DNA of 26,952 nucleotides from a virus. The notes beneath the pieces were generated by a model that did no database searches, was not told where the DNA came from, and saw nothing but the letters and a program-made list of their open reading frames with translations. The stretch is taken from IMG/VR virus record IMGVR_UViG_3300046532_000866, positions 1-26,952 of that record. One strand, 5' to 3'. Every line of letters begins with the position of its first letter. Positions within the stretch are counted from its first letter, which is position 1. Both the position numbers and the translations under genes were made by a program. This document shows positions 5,021 to 24,320 of this stretch, one piece after another.

Positions 5021-5049
5021 TTGACAAAAACCTAAAAACGAAGTATAAT
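5021..5049 (+). promoter_or_regulatory. sigma70-type promoter P4 (leaderless)
   Basis: AAAATAGTTC then TTGACA at 5021-5026, 17 bp spacer, TATAAT at 5044-5049. Placing the -10 at -12 to -7 puts +1 on A5056, the first base of the ligase ATG, so the message would have no leader. Confidence 0.94.
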
Positions 5050-5055
5050 ATACTC

Positions 5056-6006
5056 ATGAATAAAGATATAAGAACATTTTTAGGCAAGTGCCGCGATGCT
5101 TACTTCAATGGACGCCCTTTGGTGCCCGATGATGTGTATGACCGCCTTGTAGATAATATAAATACGGATGAAGTGGGTTCAGCTATTAACAGTCGTTATA
5201 AGCACCCCTTTCCTATGTATTCCCTCCAAAAAGTCTTCGCTAATGAAGATACCCCTCCTGATTACGCTGGTGAAGCTATAGTAACTACTACAAAGCTTGA
5301 CGGCGCAGCCGTGTCCTTGACATATATAAATGGTATCTTTCACCAAGCACTGACTAGAGGAGATGGCAAAGCGGGACTAGACATTAGTGATAAAATGATG
5401 CACATTATTCCTCCTACGCTAGAAACATCAATTAAAGAGCTATTCTCAGGTGTGAGACAAATCACAGGAGAAGTAGTAGCCCCCAAAGAGATTCCTAACT
5501 CTAGGAACTATGCGGCAGGTGCACTTAATTTGAAAGATGTTAACGAATTTAAAAAAAGAGACTTAACCTTTATTGCATACGGATTACAGAATCCTGTGGG
5601 CAGACGTTGGCTAGAAGATATGAACTTATTGAGCAATTGGTTCAATGTTATATCTGAATCTGATTGGTCGCAGTTCCCAAACGATGGAATTGTATTTCGC
5701 GTAGATAGATACGCTAGTTTTGAGAAGCTAGGTTACACTGCACACCACCCTCGCGGAGCATACGCTTACAAGACCAGGGCTGCAGGAGTAGTAACTAAAT
5801 TGCTAGGTGTGGAATGGAATACAGGTAAGAGTGGAGTTATTGCTCCTATTGCTCACCTAGAACCTATAAACATTGGAGGAGCTACAGTATCCAGGGCTAC
5901 ATTACATAATCTCGCATTTATTGATGAGATGATGCTAGAGATTGGATGTGATGTAGAAGTTATTAGAAGTGGGGAAATTATCCCCAAAATAGTGAGGAGA
6001 GTATGA
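5056..6006 (+). CDS. ligA: NAD+-dependent DNA ligase, adenylation + OB half (subunit A)
   Basis: 316 residues. Residues 10-30 keep a minimal NAD-binding Ia-like helix (DAYFNGRPLVPDDVYDRL). The nucleotidyltransferase domain follows, with catalytic K80 in TTKLDG, TRGDGKAGLDIS, GEVVAPKE, PNSRNYAAGALNLKD, DGIVFRVDR and AYKTRAAG. The OB fold comes next (TGKSGVIAPIAHLEPINI, TVSRATLHN, SGEIIPKI). The zinc finger, HhH and BRCT domains of full LigA (about 670 residues) are absent here and are encoded at 9752. Phage T5 also encodes NAD+ ligase as two subunits. It would seal nicks during replication. No ribosome binding site precedes the ATG and promoter P4 predicts a leaderless transcript. The end overlaps the next gene as ATGA. 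Confidence 0.95.
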   Translation: MNKDIRTFLGKCRDAYFNGRPLVPDDVYDRLVDNINTDEVGSAINSRYKHPFPMYSLQKVFANEDTPPDYAGEAIVTTTKLDGAAVSLTYINGIFHQALTRGDGKAGLDISDKMMHIIPPTLETSIKELFSGVRQITGEVVAPKEIPNSRNYAAGALNLKDVNEFKKRDLTFIAYGLQNPVGRRWLEDMNLLSNWFNVISESDWSQFPNDGIVFRVDRYASFEKLGYTAHHPRGAYAYKTRAAGVVTKLLGVEWNTGKSGVIAPIAHLEPINIGGATVSRATLHNLAFIDEMMLEIGCDVEVIRSGEIIPKIVRRV

Positions 6007-6611: not shown

Positions 6612-6742
6612 TGATAGACAAGGAAAGGTATGTAGAGTCTCAAAAAGAATCATACAAACACAAATTCGAGGGCTGGTACTGGCATAGTGAGCTTAAAAAA
6701 TTTTATAGATGGGACGACTTGCCAAAATATGCACATAAATAA
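6599..6742 (+). CDS. 47-residue small protein
   Basis: ATG 6599 lies within the end of the GIY-YIG-like gene. GTG 6611 in a TAGTG overlap is an alternative. The nearest ribosome binding site is GGAGG at 6581-6585, a long spacing. The sequence is basic and aromatic (VESQKESYKHKFEGWYWHSE, FYRWDDLPKYAHK). No family is recognised. The reading frame ends 14 bp inside the oxygenase gene, consistent with coupled translation. Confidence 0.5.
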   Translation: METVVIDKERYVESQKESYKHKFEGWYWHSELKKFYRWDDLPKYAHK

Positions 6743-7286
6743 AGTTGGATGGACATACTTTTCAGTAGTTGAGAACTTCTTGACCGCTGAAGAGTGTAAG
6801 TGTATAATTGACTCAATTAAAGAATGGCAGTTGACTCAAATCCCAGCGGGTAAATACTCGGGTAGGGACTTCGGAGATGTAAGAAGAAAGCTCGGAGTAC
6901 CCCCAAAATTACTATACAAGGACAAATTTGACTGGATTTTTGGCAAATTTAACCACAATTCGTACAAATTTAACCTAATTGATAAGCATTCACATATGGT
7001 GAATCAGTATCACAAAGGAGATATTCTTGAATACCACACGGATGAGCACGAAACTGTCGAAGACTTATTCAAGGGAACTCCCGCTAATAGACTTAGCTGC
7101 TGTATCTACTTGAATGATAATTTTGAGGGTGGAGAGTTTGAACTTGAAGGTATAGATAAGTGGAAGCCGCAGATAGGAACAGCAATTATATTCCCAAGTG
7201 CACAGAGCCACAGAAGTAATTATGTTCGTAGTGGCACTAAGTTTAATTATACAGTTTGGAAGAAAGGGGTAAGAGGTGCTTATTAA
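6729..7286 (+). CDS. 2OG-Fe(II) dioxygenase (prolyl-4-hydroxylase / PKHD type)
   Basis: 185 residues from ATG 6729. An in-frame start at 6687 would add 14 residues. The N-terminus YFSVVENFLTAEECKCIIDS is typical of P4H-like enzymes. The Fe(II) triad is visible as H103 and D105 (EYHTDEH) and H161 (QSHRSNYV), with 2OG likely bound by K171 in GTKFNYTVW instead of the usual Arg. Core strands RLSCCIYLND, FEGGEFEL and GTAIIFPS are present, so the enzyme looks active. Substrate unknown: protein, nucleotide or small molecule are all possible. Its last 11 bp overlap the carbamoyltransferase start, a tight coupling that hints at hydroxylation followed by O-carbamoylation. Confidence 0.87.
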   Translation: MHINKVGWTYFSVVENFLTAEECKCIIDSIKEWQLTQIPAGKYSGRDFGDVRRKLGVPPKLLYKDKFDWIFGKFNHNSYKFNLIDKHSHMVNQYHKGDILEYHTDEHETVEDLFKGTPANRLSCCIYLNDNFEGGEFELEGIDKWKPQIGTAIIFPSAQSHRSNYVRSGTKFNYTVWKKGVRGAY

Positions 7287-8631
7287 AGGGATATCTGAGG
7301 GGTTTCATGATGCCTCAGTAGCATTAGTTCAAGATAACCAGATTCTATGGGCTAAACATGCCGAGAGGACTACAAGGAAGAAGAACGACAGAACCAACCC
7401 AGCGTCTTTACGAAATGTAGACGCAGATGCATCAGTTTTCTATGAAAACGTACCGATGAAAAACTTAAGACGTGCCAAGTTTGGTCAATCTCTTCTTTCG
7501 ACAAAAATATTTGATGAATGTGATTATAGCTTATTTCATCACGAAAGCCACGCAGCAGGAGCGTTCTATACCTCACCTTTTGATAAGGATGTTGTATGTC
7601 TCGTGATCGATGCGATTGGAGAGTGGACAACCAGCAGTATTTGGATATATCAGAATAAAAAATTGAAGAAAGTATATGAAGATTCATATCCACATAGTAT
7701 TGGCCTGTTCTATAGTGCTATAACGAAGCGTATTGGTTTGAAACCAAACGAAGATGAATATATAACTATGGGAATGGCGGCATACGGAGAGCCTTGTATT
7801 GATATGAGATATTGTTTCAATAAGTGGGCAAATTGGCATAAAGGATTTTCCCTAGATGACTTCAAAGGACACAGACCTGAAGATATAGCCGCAAGTGCCC
7901 AGTTACACGTCGAGGATGCAATACACAAGTTAGTAAGTGCAGCCTCCCATTGGGGAAAGAATTTATGTTATGCAGGTGGGGTTGCCCTCAACTGTGTAGC
8001 GAACAGCAAATTATTACACCAGTACTTTGACAATGTTTGGATTTATCCTAACCCTGGCGATGCTGGTAGTAGTTTAGGTGCGGCGTTAGGCTATAACAAT
8101 AAGAAAGTAGAATATAGTCCGTACTTAGGAACTAACATTGATAACGAGGTTAACCCCCGAGAAGTGGTTGACTATATATTAAAAAAGAAAGTAGTTGGAG
8201 TAGCAAATGGGAAAGCGGAATTCGGACCAAGAGCCTTGGGGAATCGATCTCTACTTGGTGATGTACGCTTTGATATTAAGCGTACTGTTAATAGAATTAA
8301 AAGACGCCAGAACTTCAGACCCTTTGCCCCAGCAATCCTGTCAGAGTTCGCAGACGAATACTTTGAAGGACAAATGAACGAGTACATGCAGTATACTGCT
8401 CAAGCAAAGCACGATTACTCTAGCGTAACTCATGTAGATGGCAGTGCCAGAGTGCAGATTGTAACCCCAGAGTGCACAAGCATACTCAGACCTATATTAG
8501 AAGAATATTATGAAAAGACTAAAGTACCTATGTTACTAAATACAAGTTTAAATATCAAAGGGCAACCAATGGTAGACACTTGGCAGGATGCTTTAGACTT
8601 CCAGAAGATGTACGGAGTTAAAGTATTTTGA
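7276..8631 (+). CDS. O-carbamoyltransferase, NodU/CmcH/TobZ family
   Basis: 451 residues from GTG 7276, with AAAGGGG at 7263-7269 as ribosome binding site. The Kae1-like N-domain shows GISEGFHDASVALV, the metal-binding H88-x3-H92 (HHESHAAG), YSAITKRIGLKPNEDE, ITMGMAAYGEP and GGVALNCVAN. The YrdC-like C-domain shows FGPRALGNRSLLGD, RQNFRPFAPAIL and MLLNTSLNIKGQPMVD. The family transfers the carbamoyl group of carbamoyl phosphate, via carbamoyl-AMP, onto a hydroxyl. It is shorter than the usual 550-600 residues but keeps all core blocks. Metavirome work has linked phage members to carbamoylation of 5-hydroxymethylcytosine. No hydroxymethylase is visible here, so the acceptor is open. Confidence 0.93.
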   Translation: MLIKGISEGFHDASVALVQDNQILWAKHAERTTRKKNDRTNPASLRNVDADASVFYENVPMKNLRRAKFGQSLLSTKIFDECDYSLFHHESHAAGAFYTSPFDKDVVCLVIDAIGEWTTSSIWIYQNKKLKKVYEDSYPHSIGLFYSAITKRIGLKPNEDEYITMGMAAYGEPCIDMRYCFNKWANWHKGFSLDDFKGHRPEDIAASAQLHVEDAIHKLVSAASHWGKNLCYAGGVALNCVANSKLLHQYFDNVWIYPNPGDAGSSLGAALGYNNKKVEYSPYLGTNIDNEVNPREVVDYILKKKVVGVANGKAEFGPRALGNRSLLGDVRFDIKRTVNRIKRRQNFRPFAPAILSEFADEYFEGQMNEYMQYTAQAKHDYSSVTHVDGSARVQIVTPECTSILRPILEEYYEKTKVPMLLNTSLNIKGQPMVDTWQDALDFQKMYGVKVF

Positions 8632-9563
8632 GTATCTTATTCGCAGGTTGTAGCTTCACAAATGGCATGGAGCTAAAGGACAAGAAAGTAGACAGGTTCA
8701 GTCAGATAGTTGCTAGAGAGTTTGGAATGCTTGAGTGGAACGAAGGAAAGATTGGGGCAGGTAACGACTACATACAGCGAAGTGTATTCAATGCAGTCCT
8801 AGGAAATAAGAAACATTATAGTACCGCAATTAAGAATATAAAAGTAATAAAACATACTTATGACTCAAGTCCTACAGATACTAGACCCACCTATCCTCTG
8901 GTAGAGGGTGCAATGAAAGACGGATACTATGAACAAGTAATCCAGTCTAGTAGGGATTCTAATGGGGCAGGTACCCCTGATCTTGTAGTATGTATGTGGT
9001 CTGGCATAAACAGACACGAACTACTTAGACTTTCTAGTATTACTAATAATTGGAGTTGGGTTGTTAATACTTGGGCATCCTTCGGCTTAGATCTAAAGAC
9101 TCTGAGGGCTACACCAGATAGTCTACCCTATATAGACAAACAATTCGCAGAGAGTGGTGATGGTCTAATCGTAGCAGGATATCTAAAGCGTATTAGAAAT
9201 GCACACATGAATCTTAGACTAACTATTGGACATATGCTCTCAGTAAAGTACCTTTTAGAAGCTAAAGGAATTCCTCAGCTTCACTATTTATTCTCGCAAG
9301 GGCAGTACAGACCCCTTCTTCCAGTACTTGACTGGGACACTTTCGAGAATACTAATGTATGGTGGGATTCACTAGACTTAAGCAAGGATCAGTTAGTTGC
9401 AGAATTGCCTGTTTTAAAATCAGAAGGTTTTTATGATCTGACTAAAAGACTAAAATTACCTATAGGTCCAAAGGATCACCCCCTAGAACAAGCCCACGCG
9501 CATATGGCGAGGCGCATCATAACGGATATAAAAAATAATGAATTTAATACAGCGTTTGATTAA
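8628..9563 (+). CDS. SGNH/GDSL-like hydrolase
   Basis: 311 residues from TTG 8628, overlapping the upstream stop as TTGA. Block I is FAGCSFTNGMEL with the putative nucleophile Ser (GDS replaced by GCS). The GAGNDYI segment fits block II (conserved Gly) and DLVVCMWSGINRHELL fits block III (Asn). The C-terminal GPKDHPLEQAHAHMA supplies the D-x-x-H catalytic pair (D-H-P). This architecture is common in cyanophage and other marine phage proteins annotated as GDSL-like lipases or esterases. Substrate is unknown, possibly host polysaccharide or lipid esters or deacylation of a modified metabolite. It follows the carbamoyltransferase without a gap. Confidence 0.75.
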   Translation: MSILFAGCSFTNGMELKDKKVDRFSQIVAREFGMLEWNEGKIGAGNDYIQRSVFNAVLGNKKHYSTAIKNIKVIKHTYDSSPTDTRPTYPLVEGAMKDGYYEQVIQSSRDSNGAGTPDLVVCMWSGINRHELLRLSSITNNWSWVVNTWASFGLDLKTLRATPDSLPYIDKQFAESGDGLIVAGYLKRIRNAHMNLRLTIGHMLSVKYLLEAKGIPQLHYLFSQGQYRPLLPVLDWDTFENTNVWWDSLDLSKDQLVAELPVLKSEGFYDLTKRLKLPIGPKDHPLEQAHAHMARRIITDIKNNEFNTAFD

Positions 9564-9686: not shown

Positions 9687-9715
9687 TTGACAAGAGGTTA
9701 AATTTCCTCTATAAT
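9687..9715 (+). promoter_or_regulatory. sigma70-type promoter P5
   Basis: ATAGTTC then TTGACA at 9687-9692, 17 bp spacer, TATAAT at 9710-9715. The predicted +1 is near 9722, about 30 nt before the ligase B ATG, with an AAGAGAAAAG purine tract as ribosome binding site. Confidence 0.93.
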
Positions 9716-9751: not shown

Positions 9752-10507
9752 ATGAGTCAAATTTTACCACCAACTACCTGTCCTTCCTGTGAAGAAGAAG
9801 TATCTTGGGTCGGAGACCTAATTTACTGTCTTAACAAGATATGTCCAGCACAATGGAGTAAAAAACTCGAACATTTCGGAAAAAATCTTAAAATCAAAGG
9901 ATTCGGTCCTGCTTGCATTAGTAAGTTAGGAATCGAAGACTACCCAGAGCTGTACAAGCTTACAGTTGAGGATATTTCCTCAAGACTAGGTTCAGAGAAG
10001 TTGGCTAGTAATCTAATCGCTGAGATTGAGAAATCAAAATCAGTTGACTTACAGACCTTACTGCCAGCTTTTTCTATACCACTTTTCGGTCGGTCAGCCT
10101 CTCAAAAGTTATGCGAGACAATATCTTCACTAGATGATGTCTCTGAGAAAAGTTGTGCCGAAGCCGGTATCGGTCCGAAAGCGACAGCAAACCTTCTGCA
10201 ATGGTTAGAAGACGAATTTAAACCTAATAGTTATAAAACGACCCTTCCCTTTACTTTCTCGGCAACGAGATTCGTTAAAAGAGAGATTATAGGGACAGTT
10301 TGTATTAGTGGTAGACTCAATTCATATCCCAGCAAAGCTCGTGCCGCAGAGGCTCTGGAAAAATACGGCTTTGCCGTAAAAAACAGTCTGACAAAGGACT
10401 GCACTCACCTTATAAATGAGTCAGGAATTGAATCAGCCAAAACTAAGGCAGCGCAAGATCGCGGTGTCATAATCATAACAAACATTTTAAACTTAATTGG
10501 AGAATAA
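9752..10507 (+). CDS. ligB: NAD+-dependent DNA ligase, zinc finger/HhH/BRCT half (subunit B)
   Basis: 251 residues. The Cys4 zinc finger uses C10, C13, C26 and C31 (TTCPSCEEE, YCLNKICPAQ) and matches the LigA C-x-N-x-x-CPAQ block. Helix-hairpin-helix repeats follow from about 45 to 160 (KIKGFGPACISKLGIEDYPE, GIGPKATANLLQWLE). A BRCT domain occupies about 178-250 (GTVCISGRLNSYPSKARAAE, GFAVKNSLTKDCTHLI). It contains no nucleotidyltransferase domain and would act with the half at 5056. It has its own promoter of the same class, so the two halves could be co-expressed although about 3.7 kb apart. T5 is the precedent for a two-subunit ligase. Confidence 0.93.
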   Translation: MSQILPPTTCPSCEEEVSWVGDLIYCLNKICPAQWSKKLEHFGKNLKIKGFGPACISKLGIEDYPELYKLTVEDISSRLGSEKLASNLIAEIEKSKSVDLQTLLPAFSIPLFGRSASQKLCETISSLDDVSEKSCAEAGIGPKATANLLQWLEDEFKPNSYKTTLPFTFSATRFVKREIIGTVCISGRLNSYPSKARAAEALEKYGFAVKNSLTKDCTHLINESGIESAKTKAAQDRGVIIITNILNLIGE

Positions 10508-18503: not shown

Positions 18504-19151
18504 ATGGAAATGTTCAAAGGAAAACGTGTAGCAATAACAGGACATACAAGCGGAATTGGTAAAGAAATTTACGAGTACTGTCAATTTCATGGTGCAGAGG
18601 TCAAGGGCTTCTCACGTACTAGTGGCTTCGATTTAAGAGATGGAGGTGATGATATCATCAATGAAATTCTTAGATGGGATGCTGATATAGTATTTAATCA
18701 TGCGTGGACTCCGAGAACACAGAACAAGATTCTTAAAATATTACACACACAATGGGAAAAGTATAATAACAAAGTAATTATCAATACAGGCTCGGCTACC
18801 TGTTATTACTCTATAGGTGCAGACATCTATGAGAAGGACAAGTCAGAGCTTCGAGATTATTGTATTCAATCCGCACAGCTTTATCCTCATTCTAACAAGT
18901 GTAGAGTACACAATGTTAGTATGGGTTGGACTAACTCTGCAATTTTAACGGGGGTAGAAGATGGGGAGTATTTTATTGACCCATACGAAGCCGCACTTGT
19001 TTTAATTAACTTATGTCAGCCCCAGAATTATGTCATGTCTGAAGTAGTAGTGAATTCTAAATTCAAGCCTATGTCAGAAATGGTGTACTTACGAGATAAA
19101 GCATCGCAGAATGTAATTACGTCACTTGGAGAGCCGCGTGCCAACGATTGA
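18504..19151 (+). CDS. short-chain dehydrogenase/reductase (SDR) family
   Basis: 215 residues, with AGGAGA at 18490-18495. The Rossmann NAD(P)-binding motif is RVAITGHTSGIGKEI (T-G-x3-G-I-G), followed by DLRDG and the DADIVFNHA strand in place of the usual N-N-A-G. A catalytic-type S in NTGSATCYY and Y-x3-K in YEKDKSEL are present. The enzyme lacks a long C-terminal substrate domain, so it is compact. It likely reduces or oxidises a small carbonyl or sugar substrate. It starts the accessory block and overlaps the QueC-like gene by 14 bp. Confidence 0.85.
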   Translation: MEMFKGKRVAITGHTSGIGKEIYEYCQFHGAEVKGFSRTSGFDLRDGGDDIINEILRWDADIVFNHAWTPRTQNKILKILHTQWEKYNNKVIINTGSATCYYSIGADIYEKDKSELRDYCIQSAQLYPHSNKCRVHNVSMGWTNSAILTGVEDGEYFIDPYEAALVLINLCQPQNYVMSEVVVNSKFKPMSEMVYLRDKASQNVITSLGEPRAND

Positions 19152-19938
19152 AGTTAGTTCAAAAGAAAACAGTACCTTAAAAAGCACCGCTGAAATGAGA
19201 AAGGCTATAGAACAGGCTGATCCTAGAACTAATACTTATATGCCACTTAGTGCAGGAGTAGAGTCCACCGCGGCTTTACTTTATGCAGTACGTGACCCAG
19301 ATTTGCATCCCTTTTGTGTATACTGGTATGAACAACGCTATGGTATGTTTTCGGACGCTATGGCGTTTTATACACAGAAACAAGCAGAGTATTTTAATCT
19401 ACCTTATGGTAATGATAAATCTATGCTATCACTTTTGCAACATACGAGGGAAGTCCCGATCATAGTATCGGGACTATCTTCTTTTATGTCTGTAGTGTTG
19501 GGGCAGCCCAACGGAATTAAATTTAAATGGTTTATGATGGGAGCTAACGCAGAAGATGATATGCGTATGCGTTTACAGTTTAGGGAGTACCGTAAGATTA
19601 TGGCTCTCTTCGCTAGTGATGTCCTAGATGGATCAGGAGTTGCCTTATGGGCAGCTAGAGAAACGCCCCAAGTTATGAATCCATTGGATTTCTTGACAAA
19701 ATCGGAAATGTACGCTTTAATAATTAGAGAAGAGCCGAAACTTGCAGAAATGATGTGGACTTGTATAGTACCTAAGGGCGAGATTAGAAAAAATGGAAAG
19801 ATAGTAGGATATGAGGCTTGTAATACCTGCTATAAATGTTTAGAACTAAACCAAGCTAAAAAGACTGCTGCTGACGCAGTATTCAGATACCAAGAAGGTA
19901 TAAAATATCTTAGTAGTATTCGGAAGGACATGATGTAA
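19138..19938 (+). CDS. QueC-like PP-loop ATPase
   Basis: 266 residues from GTG 19138, with GGAGAG at 19128-19133. TTG 19126 is an alternative. The ATP-pyrophosphatase loop is LSAGVEST (residues 37-44), a variant of S-G-G-x-D-S-T with Ala and Glu substitutions. Features of QueC/ExsB are M-G-A-N-A-E-D-D and a terminal Cys cluster MWTCIVPKGE and EACNTCYKCLELNQA (a four-Cys zinc site). QueC makes preQ0 from CDG, and phages use this pathway for 7-deazaguanine DNA modification. The other pathway enzymes (QueD, QueE, FolE, a transglycosylase) are not in this window, so a PP-loop enzyme of a different specificity is also possible. Confidence 0.75.
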   Translation: MPTIEVSSKENSTLKSTAEMRKAIEQADPRTNTYMPLSAGVESTAALLYAVRDPDLHPFCVYWYEQRYGMFSDAMAFYTQKQAEYFNLPYGNDKSMLSLLQHTREVPIIVSGLSSFMSVVLGQPNGIKFKWFMMGANAEDDMRMRLQFREYRKIMALFASDVLDGSGVALWAARETPQVMNPLDFLTKSEMYALIIREEPKLAEMMWTCIVPKGEIRKNGKIVGYEACNTCYKCLELNQAKKTAADAVFRYQEGIKYLSSIRKDMM

Positions 19939-20531
19939 TGAGACCATTTCTTCATAAATCCTTTATGAGTATACAAGAATGCTCAATAGTACAACAGTAT
20001 GTAAACTTGTTAGTACTAAATAAACGGATTAAGAAGATTAGTCAAGAGAACGGAGAGTTCTGGCAGCTTAATGGCGATCCACTAACCGACTCAATAGGAC
20101 TTGTGTATCAAGAGACAGTTATAGCACATATAAAGAAAAAAGTAAACCTAAGCTACAGTATGCTTAGACGATGGAATGCAGGAGCCTCTATGCCTTGGCA
20201 TAGAAATAGATGGGAAGCGGAATGGACTGTACTAATACAGATTAGTGATAACAACTGGCCTATTGGTTTTACTGGAGGACAACAAGAATCTCCTTATATA
20301 GAAGGACAGCAATCTTCAAGTATGATTTTGACTCCTTCACGGGGAGACGCTGTTATATTTAATGCTTCAGAGAACTTTCATAGCAGACACAAATTAAAAG
20401 GGTCAGAGTGTACTACTCTCTGTCTCTACTACACAGAAGTAGATGGCTATTTAGATTGTAAAGATAACCGAGACAACTATGGCGATAACTACAAAACAAA
20501 GCAATTAGCAGAGGTTAAATATGGAAAATAA
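19938..20531 (+). CDS. 2OG-Fe(II) oxygenase-like protein with altered metal motif
   Basis: 197 residues, TAATG start at 19938. The pattern of an N-terminal FLHKSFMSIQECSIVQQYVN, a metal region YSMLRRWNAGASMPWHRN, and a distal NASENFHSRHKLKG then CTTLCLYYTEVD is that of 2OG-Fe(II) oxygenases. The H-x-D/E metal motif reads H88-R-N90, so the acidic ligand seems lost. H148 is kept and K152/K154 could bind 2OG. Either the ligand is supplied elsewhere (E93 or E95 in RWEAEW are near) or the protein is non-catalytic. It is coupled to the QueC-like gene and overlaps the next by 11 bp. Confidence 0.65.
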   Translation: MRPFLHKSFMSIQECSIVQQYVNLLVLNKRIKKISQENGEFWQLNGDPLTDSIGLVYQETVIAHIKKKVNLSYSMLRRWNAGASMPWHRNRWEAEWTVLIQISDNNWPIGFTGGQQESPYIEGQQSSSMILTPSRGDAVIFNASENFHSRHKLKGSECTTLCLYYTEVDGYLDCKDNRDNYGDNYKTKQLAEVKYGK

Positions 20532-22811: not shown

Positions 22812-24320
22812 ATGTGCGGATTCGTAGGGACTACTAACAAACATCTTTGTGAGCTAATGTTGAAGAAACAGGAGCATCGAGGACCTGATGCTCTTTCTTT
22901 TTGGTCTGACGATAGGCTGTCGCTTGGACATGCCTTGTTAGACATATCAGGTAGTAAACAAACCCAACCTATAAGAACTAAGTATGGAAGTTACGTTCTA
23001 TTTAATGGCGAGATGTACGATAGTAGAGATCAGAATGATACCGTATGGCTGGGAAAGATGCTAGACAAGTACGGAACCGCAGTTCTAGAATGGTCTGATT
23101 GGCATGGTAGTATAGCTTACTATAAGCCCCAAGAAAACAAACTTCTTTTAATTAGAGACCAGTTCGGAACTAAGCCTTTATGGTGGGGATTTGATGGTGA
23201 GACTTTTCAATTTAGTACAAGTTGTAAATCTTTTCTACACAAGGAGTTGCAAACTAAAGAACGAAAGTTTGGCTCTATGGGAGACGAGTGTATCTGGAAA
23301 GGTTTTCATAAGGTAGAGCCAGGCGGTATGCTAGAGTTTGATTTAAATGATAATTTTAAGCTTCGTAGAAGTAATTTATGGAATTGGTTTACCTTAAATA
23401 AGACAAAATTTAACCCCGAAGAATTTATTGAGAAAACCAAAGCATCTATCTTGAAGGTAGCAGACCACGGAAACTCTAGTAATAAACATGCTATTTTCCT
23501 AAGTGGCGGGTTCGACAGCACACTAGTAGCATCTATATGCCGTGAAAGTACTAAGGATATCACGCTTTTCACTTGCGGTTATAGTAACGAAAAGGGGAAC
23601 AACCATGAACACATGGGTTTCCAAGAAGAAAGTCGTATGGCTAAAAAGACTGCTGAATTATTTGGCAGGGAGTTAGTTCATGTAGATTTAGGGAGAGATC
23701 AGAGAATCGCACTAGGTAAGACCTGGTTGTCGGGAACTCATTATGCTTGGTCTGACCACAATAGGCAAGCACCTCGTTATTTACTAGCGAGAACAGCGGC
23801 AGAACATGGATGTAAAGTAGTATTAACTGGTGATAGCGGGGATGAGTTATACTCAGGCTATATGCACCATGATAAAAGATTTAATGAAGAGTACTGCTTA
23901 GCTATGATAGAGCAGTACAGAAAAGAACGATGGTTCCCTTCTGATATACTTGATCAGACAGATCCTATGGCAGCCAGTCTCTTTATTGACCTGTTGACAA
24001 CATCAGAACAGAATATTCTAGCTACTGATCAAACCTGTGGGTTGTTTGGTATGGAGTCAAGGATTCCACTACTTACACAGAGGTATGTTCACTATAACAT
24101 GACTATACCTACAGTAACAAGATTTAAACAGATGAAAGAGTATGAATTAGGTACAACAAAATATCTAATGAGAGAAGTAATGAAAGACTATTTACCCGAC
24201 CACGTAGTAAAACGAAAACAAAAGACTGGTTGGAGTAGCCCATGGGATAATAATCACCGCGAACAAAGTCTTCGTTGGAGAGATGAAGACCTTGAATTAT
24301 TGAAAAGGCTAGGTGCATGA
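22812..24320 (+). CDS. asnB: asparagine synthase (glutamine-hydrolysing)
   Basis: 502 residues. The glutaminase domain starts MCGFVG (Cys2 nucleophile after Met removal) with HRGPDALSFW, HALLDISGSKQTQ, VLFNGEMYD and RDQFGTKPLWWG. The synthetase domain has the PP-loop AIFLSGGFDSTLVASI, SDHNRQAPRY, LTGDSGDELYSGY and FGMESRIPLL. It is slightly shorter than E. coli AsnB (554). The reaction gives asparagine from aspartate, glutamine and ATP, but paralogues amidate other acids, so a modification role is possible given its neighbours. It follows immediately on the previous stop codon. Start choice is secure because of the N-terminal Cys. Confidence 0.95.
   Translation: MCGFVGTTNKHLCELMLKKQEHRGPDALSFWSDDRLSLGHALLDISGSKQTQPIRTKYGSYVLFNGEMYDSRDQNDTVWLGKMLDKYGTAVLEWSDWHGSIAYYKPQENKLLLIRDQFGTKPLWWGFDGETFQFSTSCKSFLHKELQTKERKFGSMGDECIWKGFHKVEPGGMLEFDLNDNFKLRRSNLWNWFTLNKTKFNPEEFIEKTKASILKVADHGNSSNKHAIFLSGGFDSTLVASICRESTKDITLFTCGYSNEKGNNHEHMGFQEESRMAKKTAELFGRELVHVDLGRDQRIALGKTWLSGTHYAWSDHNRQAPRYLLARTAAEHGCKVVLTGDSGDELYSGYMHHDKRFNEEYCLAMIEQYRKERWFPSDILDQTDPMAASLFIDLLTTSEQNILATDQTCGLFGMESRIPLLTQRYVHYNMTIPTVTRFKQMKEYELGTTKYLMREVMKDYLPDHVVKRKQKTGWSSPWDNNHREQSLRWRDEDLELLKRLGA

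Follow-up and report, generated by a model that had tools for sequence, protein, structure and literature searches.

The stretch of DNA considered here, called the window, is an entire IMG/VR virus record of 26,952 bases. Its DNA polymerase shares about 45% identity with the polymerases of T5-type enterobacterial phages, and this enzyme, together with the split NAD-dependent DNA ligase, the DnaB-like helicase, and the primase found among its replication genes, marks the source by sequence as a T5-like marine phage. Three genes sit between the two halves of the ligase, all on the plus strand like the halves themselves. The upstream border is ligA, which codes for the adenylation part of the ligase (5056-6006; phrog_3359, E 1e-94), and the downstream border is ligB, which codes for the C-terminal part (9752-10507; phrog_3498, E 3e-57). 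The first gene of the trio, OX, codes for a prolyl 4-hydroxylase (P4H)-type 2OG-Fe(II) oxygenase of 185 amino acids (6729-7286, from an ATG at 6729 to a TAA ending at 7286). The second, CT, codes for a NodU/TobZ-type O-carbamoyltransferase of 451 amino acids (7276-8631, from a GTG at 7276 to a TGA ending at 8631). The third, SG, starts at a TTG and codes for an SGNH-fold protein of 311 amino acids, a distant relative of DUF6071 (PF19547), at 8628-9563.

OX and CT overlap by 11 bp, as the initial annotation had reported, and CT and SG overlap by 4 bp. SG and this second overlap were missed in that annotation, and it is SG that proves to be the constant partner. Since the frames of OX and CT are open and conserved among relatives, the gene pair lies far beyond chance.

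The window holds six exact TTGACA-17-TATAAT promoters, compared to 0.03 expected. One of these perfect sigma-70 consensus promoters stands before ligA, with the trio downstream of it (5021-5049, plus strand), and another lies between SG and ligB (9687-9715, plus strand), so the trio would most likely be carried on the ligA transcript. The full set lies at 369, 4860, 5021, 9687, 14687, and 26047, with spacers that are also partly alike, and likely marks the transcription units of this T5-like phage.

Identity of the three proteins

The oxygenase matches PF13640 with 45.9 bits (cut-off 27), and its metal-binding triad, H103, D105, and H161, is invariant in 53 homologues. The basic 2OG-binding residue is K171 in the window protein. 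An AF2 model (pLDDT 92.6) predicts a P4H-like double-stranded beta-helix fold. The top Foldseek matches of this model are the collagen prolyl hydroxylase of PBCV-1 (vCPH) and bacterial and algal P4H; the match to vCPH (5c5t) has an E-value of 5e-10 and a TM score of 0.61, and P4H matches reach a TM score of 0.70. The Pseudomonas putida P4H that was solved with EF-Tu is also among the matches. The description of OX as an intact P4H-type oxygenase thus stands.

Annotations usually treat phage carbamoyltransferases as auxiliary genes with no known use, and since 2021 these enzymes have been suspected of cytosine modification. The window CT scores 162 bits against the N-terminal domain PF02543 (cut-off 24) and 158 bits against the C-terminal domain PF16861 (cut-off 27), and NovN, GdmN, and TobZ are its relatives in the PDB. 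The Fe ligands H88, H92, D112, and D262 (the H-xxx-H, D, D set) are intact. So is the YrdC-like block EFGPRALGNRS, including R319, G322, and R324, which bears out the initial annotation on both the HxxxH and the YrdC-like blocks. By these sequence features CT is a NodU/TobZ-type O-carbamoyltransferase.

SG itself has no Pfam or PHROG match. A tblastn search of SG against phages also gave no match, so structure and profiles were used for this protein. Across 24 homologues, the residues of the SGNH blocks are kept: S9, G43, and H284 without exception, and N128 almost without. Its AF2 model (pLDDT 89.9) finds SGNH/CE2 esterases and GDSL lipases in Foldseek, with weak E-values (best 9e-4). The window copy does not match PF19547, but a homologue at locus L026 passes it (31.2 bits, cut-off 27), the proteins paired with bacterial CTs clearly belong to DUF6071, and hhalign gives 99.6% between the SG profile and a profile holding clear DUF6071 members. 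SGNH hydrolases usually have an Asp at position -3 from the catalytic His (D-x-x-H), and SG lacks it: the window sequence reads G-P-K-D-H-P, with an Asp at -1. SG is described as an SGNH-fold protein with uncertain hydrolase activity because of this missing Asp at -3.

A fixed partner and a variable upstream slot

The neighbors of CT were counted in 68 loci, phage and bacterial, made non-redundant at 80%. A strict SGNH motif missed obvious members, so it was replaced by a simpler motif that was chosen after the neighbors had been read. By this motif, an SGNH-like gene follows CT directly in 35 of 64 loci, compared to about 2% of distant genes. SGNH-like genes make up 53 of the 255 genes within two positions of CT and 15 of the 672 genes further off (odds ratio 11.5), with a p-value of 2e-19 that is indicative only, since the loci are related by descent and it overstates their independence. 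A Pfam scan of the CT neighbors served as an independent check on this count. Among the 129 immediate neighbors, DUF6071 ranks first with 19 matches and 2OG-FeII_Oxy_3 second with 10, followed by GDSL with 7 and 2OG-FeII_Oxy_5 with 4; in the distant-gene control, all four fall outside the 25 commonest families. Each of the 43 distinct loci examined from marine T5-like phages has CT and SG upstream of ligB, and 19 of these loci had been picked up via ligB alone. SG is therefore the steady partner of CT, and the conserved unit is CT-SG. In some T5-like relatives, the two are separated by an inserted peptide deformylase gene (L099, 3366-3806; L242, 5540-5995).

The slot between ligA and CT is another matter. 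OX adjoins CT in 17 of the 43 T5-like loci, and it is absent from L206 although the CT of that locus is close to the window CT. In other T5-like phages the slot holds a radical SAM/SPASM gene, a QueC-like gene, a cytidylyltransferase gene, or a sulfotransferase-looking gene. The PF13640 oxygenases beside CT lie upstream of it in T5-like phages and fall into two distinct groups in the OX tree, a split that is weakened by long branches. In the group that includes the window gene, OX adjoins CT wherever downstream sequence is available, and an overlap of a few bases between the two genes is also present in several relatives.

Oxygenases of a second family recur near CT. One of the PF13759 type is found upstream near CT at L248, and others lie directly downstream of CT in C48C1-like myophages, where several of the matches fall below the curated cut-off. 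On the upstream side of CT, these myophages (L065, L069, L072, L080, and L082) have a HAD/NT5C-like gene. In other marine myophages, the neighbors of CT include radical SAM/SPASM proteins.

The initial annotation had proposed that the oxygenase makes the hydroxyl on which the transferase acts. Since oxygenases of different subfamilies recur beside CT, it is plausible that an oxygenase helps to make the acceptor, and on these gene neighborhoods the recurrence favors a shared OX-CT pathway over accident, though it falls short of proof. The proposal does not extend to the family as a whole: most relatives carry CT without a window-type oxygenase, so OX is no general requirement. The pairing of OX with CT is a plausible one, secondary to the CT-SG core.

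Elsewhere in the window, a PP-loop ATPase at 19126-19938 has a C-terminal Cys cluster and is QueC-like by its match to phrog_1550. In sister phages, QueC-like genes that look related adjoin the radical SAM/SPASM genes found upstream of CT. These QueC-like proteins raised 7-deazaguanine DNA modification as a candidate, which was set aside since a search for TGT came back empty for the window and for 14 other T5-like records of up to 105 kb. A DUF6445 protein (1061-1726) and a weak 2OG/WelO5-like protein (19938-20531) are possibly further non-heme iron oxygenases. At 22812-24320 there is a complete asparagine-synthase-like protein (GATase and Asn_synthase), and a similar gene is present in a 102.9-kb relative.

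What the carbamoyltransferase may act on

The reading preferred here, to which we give about an even chance, is that OX, CT, and SG form a tailoring cassette with a fixed CT-SG core and a swappable upstream enzyme, and that its acceptor is most likely a glycan-type or peptidyl hydroxyl. By homology, the YrdC-like domain of CT would convert carbamoyl phosphate and ATP to a carbamoyl-adenylate, and the Fe-bearing Kae1-like site would then pass the carbamoyl group to the acceptor hydroxyl. SG, which is esterase-like, may work on the same substrate, for example by removing an O-acyl group to free the hydroxyl or by clearing wrong esters or carbamates as an editing step. OX, from the swappable slot, could add a hydroxyl to that substrate or to its precursor. 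The acceptor would most likely be a glycan-linked or a peptidyl or amino-acid hydroxyl, and the trio probably decorates a sugar, a peptide, or a small molecule rather than the phage DNA.

A glycan-type acceptor seems somewhat likelier than a peptidyl one. Sugar genes are found beside related and distant phage CTs, including those for epimerases, UDP-glucose dehydrogenase, GT10, GT11, and cytidylyltransferase, and genes that look by sequence like UDP-sugar dehydrogenases lie beside other phage CTs. The 102.9-kb T5-like record, which has OX, CT, and SG, also has a GT29 (sialyltransferase-like) gene (L282, 11561-12229) and a GT8-like gene (L279, 9542-10312). Of course, some observations speak against the tailoring cassette. 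It is in other phages that the glycan-type context is clearest, the window proteins scanned include no recognized glycosyltransferase, and the unit lies among replication genes. SG has neither the usual Asp nor strong Foldseek E-values, and OX and CT could adjoin without a common substrate.

The P4H fold predicted for OX points instead to a hydroxyl on a peptide or amino acid, and one alternative takes this further: OX would hydroxylate a residue in some protein of the phage or its host, and CT would cap the new hydroxyl with a carbamoyl group, a double modification that would be new. The fold of OX is closest to peptide-modifying prolyl hydroxylases, including vCPH and the P4H that was solved with EF-Tu, the window's OX group keeps to the side of CT, and the radical SAM/SPASM proteins of the other marine myophages also fit such a target. 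However, CT mostly occurs without OX and would thus need another acceptor in most phages. The known members of the CT family act on sugars, antibiotics, and 5-hydroxymethylcytosine (5hmC), and no collagen-like or Ser-Pro-rich protein is evident in the 102.9-kb relative. We consider this alternative unlikely. The single Gly-X-Y match in that relative is a glycine-rich large tail protein and is uninformative.

A second alternative, judged no better, is that CT and SG cooperate and OX is an unrelated passenger that landed in the hypervariable slot between ligA and CT. The slot is indeed variable in sister phages, OX has been lost at L206 despite the closely related CT, and 2OG oxygenases are numerous in marine phages in general (PMC3037559). 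A chance arrival is harder to reconcile with the recurrence of different oxygenase subfamilies beside CT, with the second rank of 2OG-FeII_Oxy_3 among the CT neighbors as against the distant control, or with the short OX/CT overlaps in several relatives.

The tailoring cassette also has a bolder form, which is doubtful at present. Here the invariant CT-DUF6071/SGNH pair would belong to a modular system, housed in the replication region of marine T5-like phages, in which an exchangeable upstream enzyme (a P4H, a radical SAM/QueC-like enzyme, or a cytidylyltransferase) sets the acceptor. The product would be an undescribed hydroxylated and carbamoylated peptide or glycan, and the P4H version would possibly yield a carbamoylated hydroxy-amino acid.

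DNA was the other acceptor put forward in the initial annotation, with OX making a hydroxylated base and CT carbamoylating it. A phage-type CT is known to carbamoylate 5hmC (MetaGPA, eLife 2021, PMC8670742), the cassette sits in a replication region, and an OX homologue weakly matches Tet_JBP (15.7-16.4 bits, with 16.4 bits at L099, below the cut-off of 34.9). In the tree, however, four CTs of the 5hmC type, namely the characterized enzyme and relatives from Xp15, Acinetobacter, and Bacteroides phages, form one separate clade (support 100/100) with the window CT outside it. At three positions where R, K, and R stand in the window CT and in the other CTs inspected, these four carry T, N, and M. 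At the published positions G421 and R423, all 67 aligned CTs of the non-hmC type, the window CT included, have G and R; in the hmC-type enzymes, position 423 is T and position 421 is mostly C. R324 of the window would correspond to R423 of TobZ. The three genomic CTs of the 5hmC type adjoin a thymidylate synthase or dCMP hydroxymethylase gene.

The initial annotation had seen no dCMP hydroxymethylase or TET-like enzyme in the window, and this result was reproduced when the homologue search was extended to other T5-like records. PF00303, the thymidylate synthase/dCMP hydroxymethylase family, has no match in the window, in 14 other T5-like records (29-105 kb), or in 46 of 49 CT records, though any of these records may be incomplete. 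Its matches are in three CT records (L043, L061, and L083), and the CTs of these lie outside the T5-like clade. Tet_JBP (PF12851) has no match in the window and is never above its cut-off in 16 records. Given the separate clade, the residue signature, the P4H-like rather than TET-like fold of OX in Foldseek, and the lack of any hydroxymethylase, TET, or TGT match above cut-off in the T5-like records tested, DNA as the acceptor is not supported, and hypermodification by this trio is very improbable.

Relation to known systems

All of the enzyme families of the trio are already known, and what is new is the linkage of CT to DUF6071/SGNH, of which no description was found in the literature searched. 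Searches on DUF6071, on a carbamoyltransferase of T5-like marine phages, and on polyoxin precedents found nothing. The linkage gives DUF6071, a family of unknown function, a partner that can be tested in phages as well as in bacteria, and it gives a large group of marine T5-like phages a conserved module that is wedged into the ligase locus.

Each of the three proteins can be set beside better-known relatives. OX shares the HxD...H triad, the basic residue at H+10, and PF13640 with vCPH, the bacterial and algal P4H, and the PKHD/PiuC type, but it is only about 20% identical to P4H-type oxygenases in structural alignments. SG resembles the SGNH/GDSL esterases and the partners in polysaccharide O-acyl transfer (CE2, PatB, and AlgJ/AlgX) in its fold and in the block residues S, G, N, and H, and it differs from them in the missing Asp at -3 and in an identity of about 10%. 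The partner also differs, since SG is paired with a carbamoyltransferase rather than an MBOAT.

CT has both Pfam domains, the Fe ligands, and the YrdC-like block in common with TobZ, NodU, NovN, and GdmN, but it is shorter (451 amino acids compared to PDB chains of 576-702), is encoded by a phage, and has an SGNH-like partner. The Nol-like carbamoyltransferases of cyanophages and pelagiphages belong to the same PHROG as CT (phrog_1601, E 8e-87). Some of these lie in a sugar-gene context, and the CT of S-TIM4 adjoins a 2OG oxygenase. They are 27-30% identical to the window CT and lie outside the ligA-ligB site, and a DUF6071-type partner is generally not evident in the regions read. The 5hmC carbamoyltransferase (PMC8670742) is of the same superfamily and is also phage-encoded. 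The contrast with it provides a diagnostic: a DNA-type CT falls in its own clade, has T/N/M in place of the R/K/R of the window CT, and has a hydroxymethylase neighbor, whereas a window-type CT has a DUF6071/SGNH partner.
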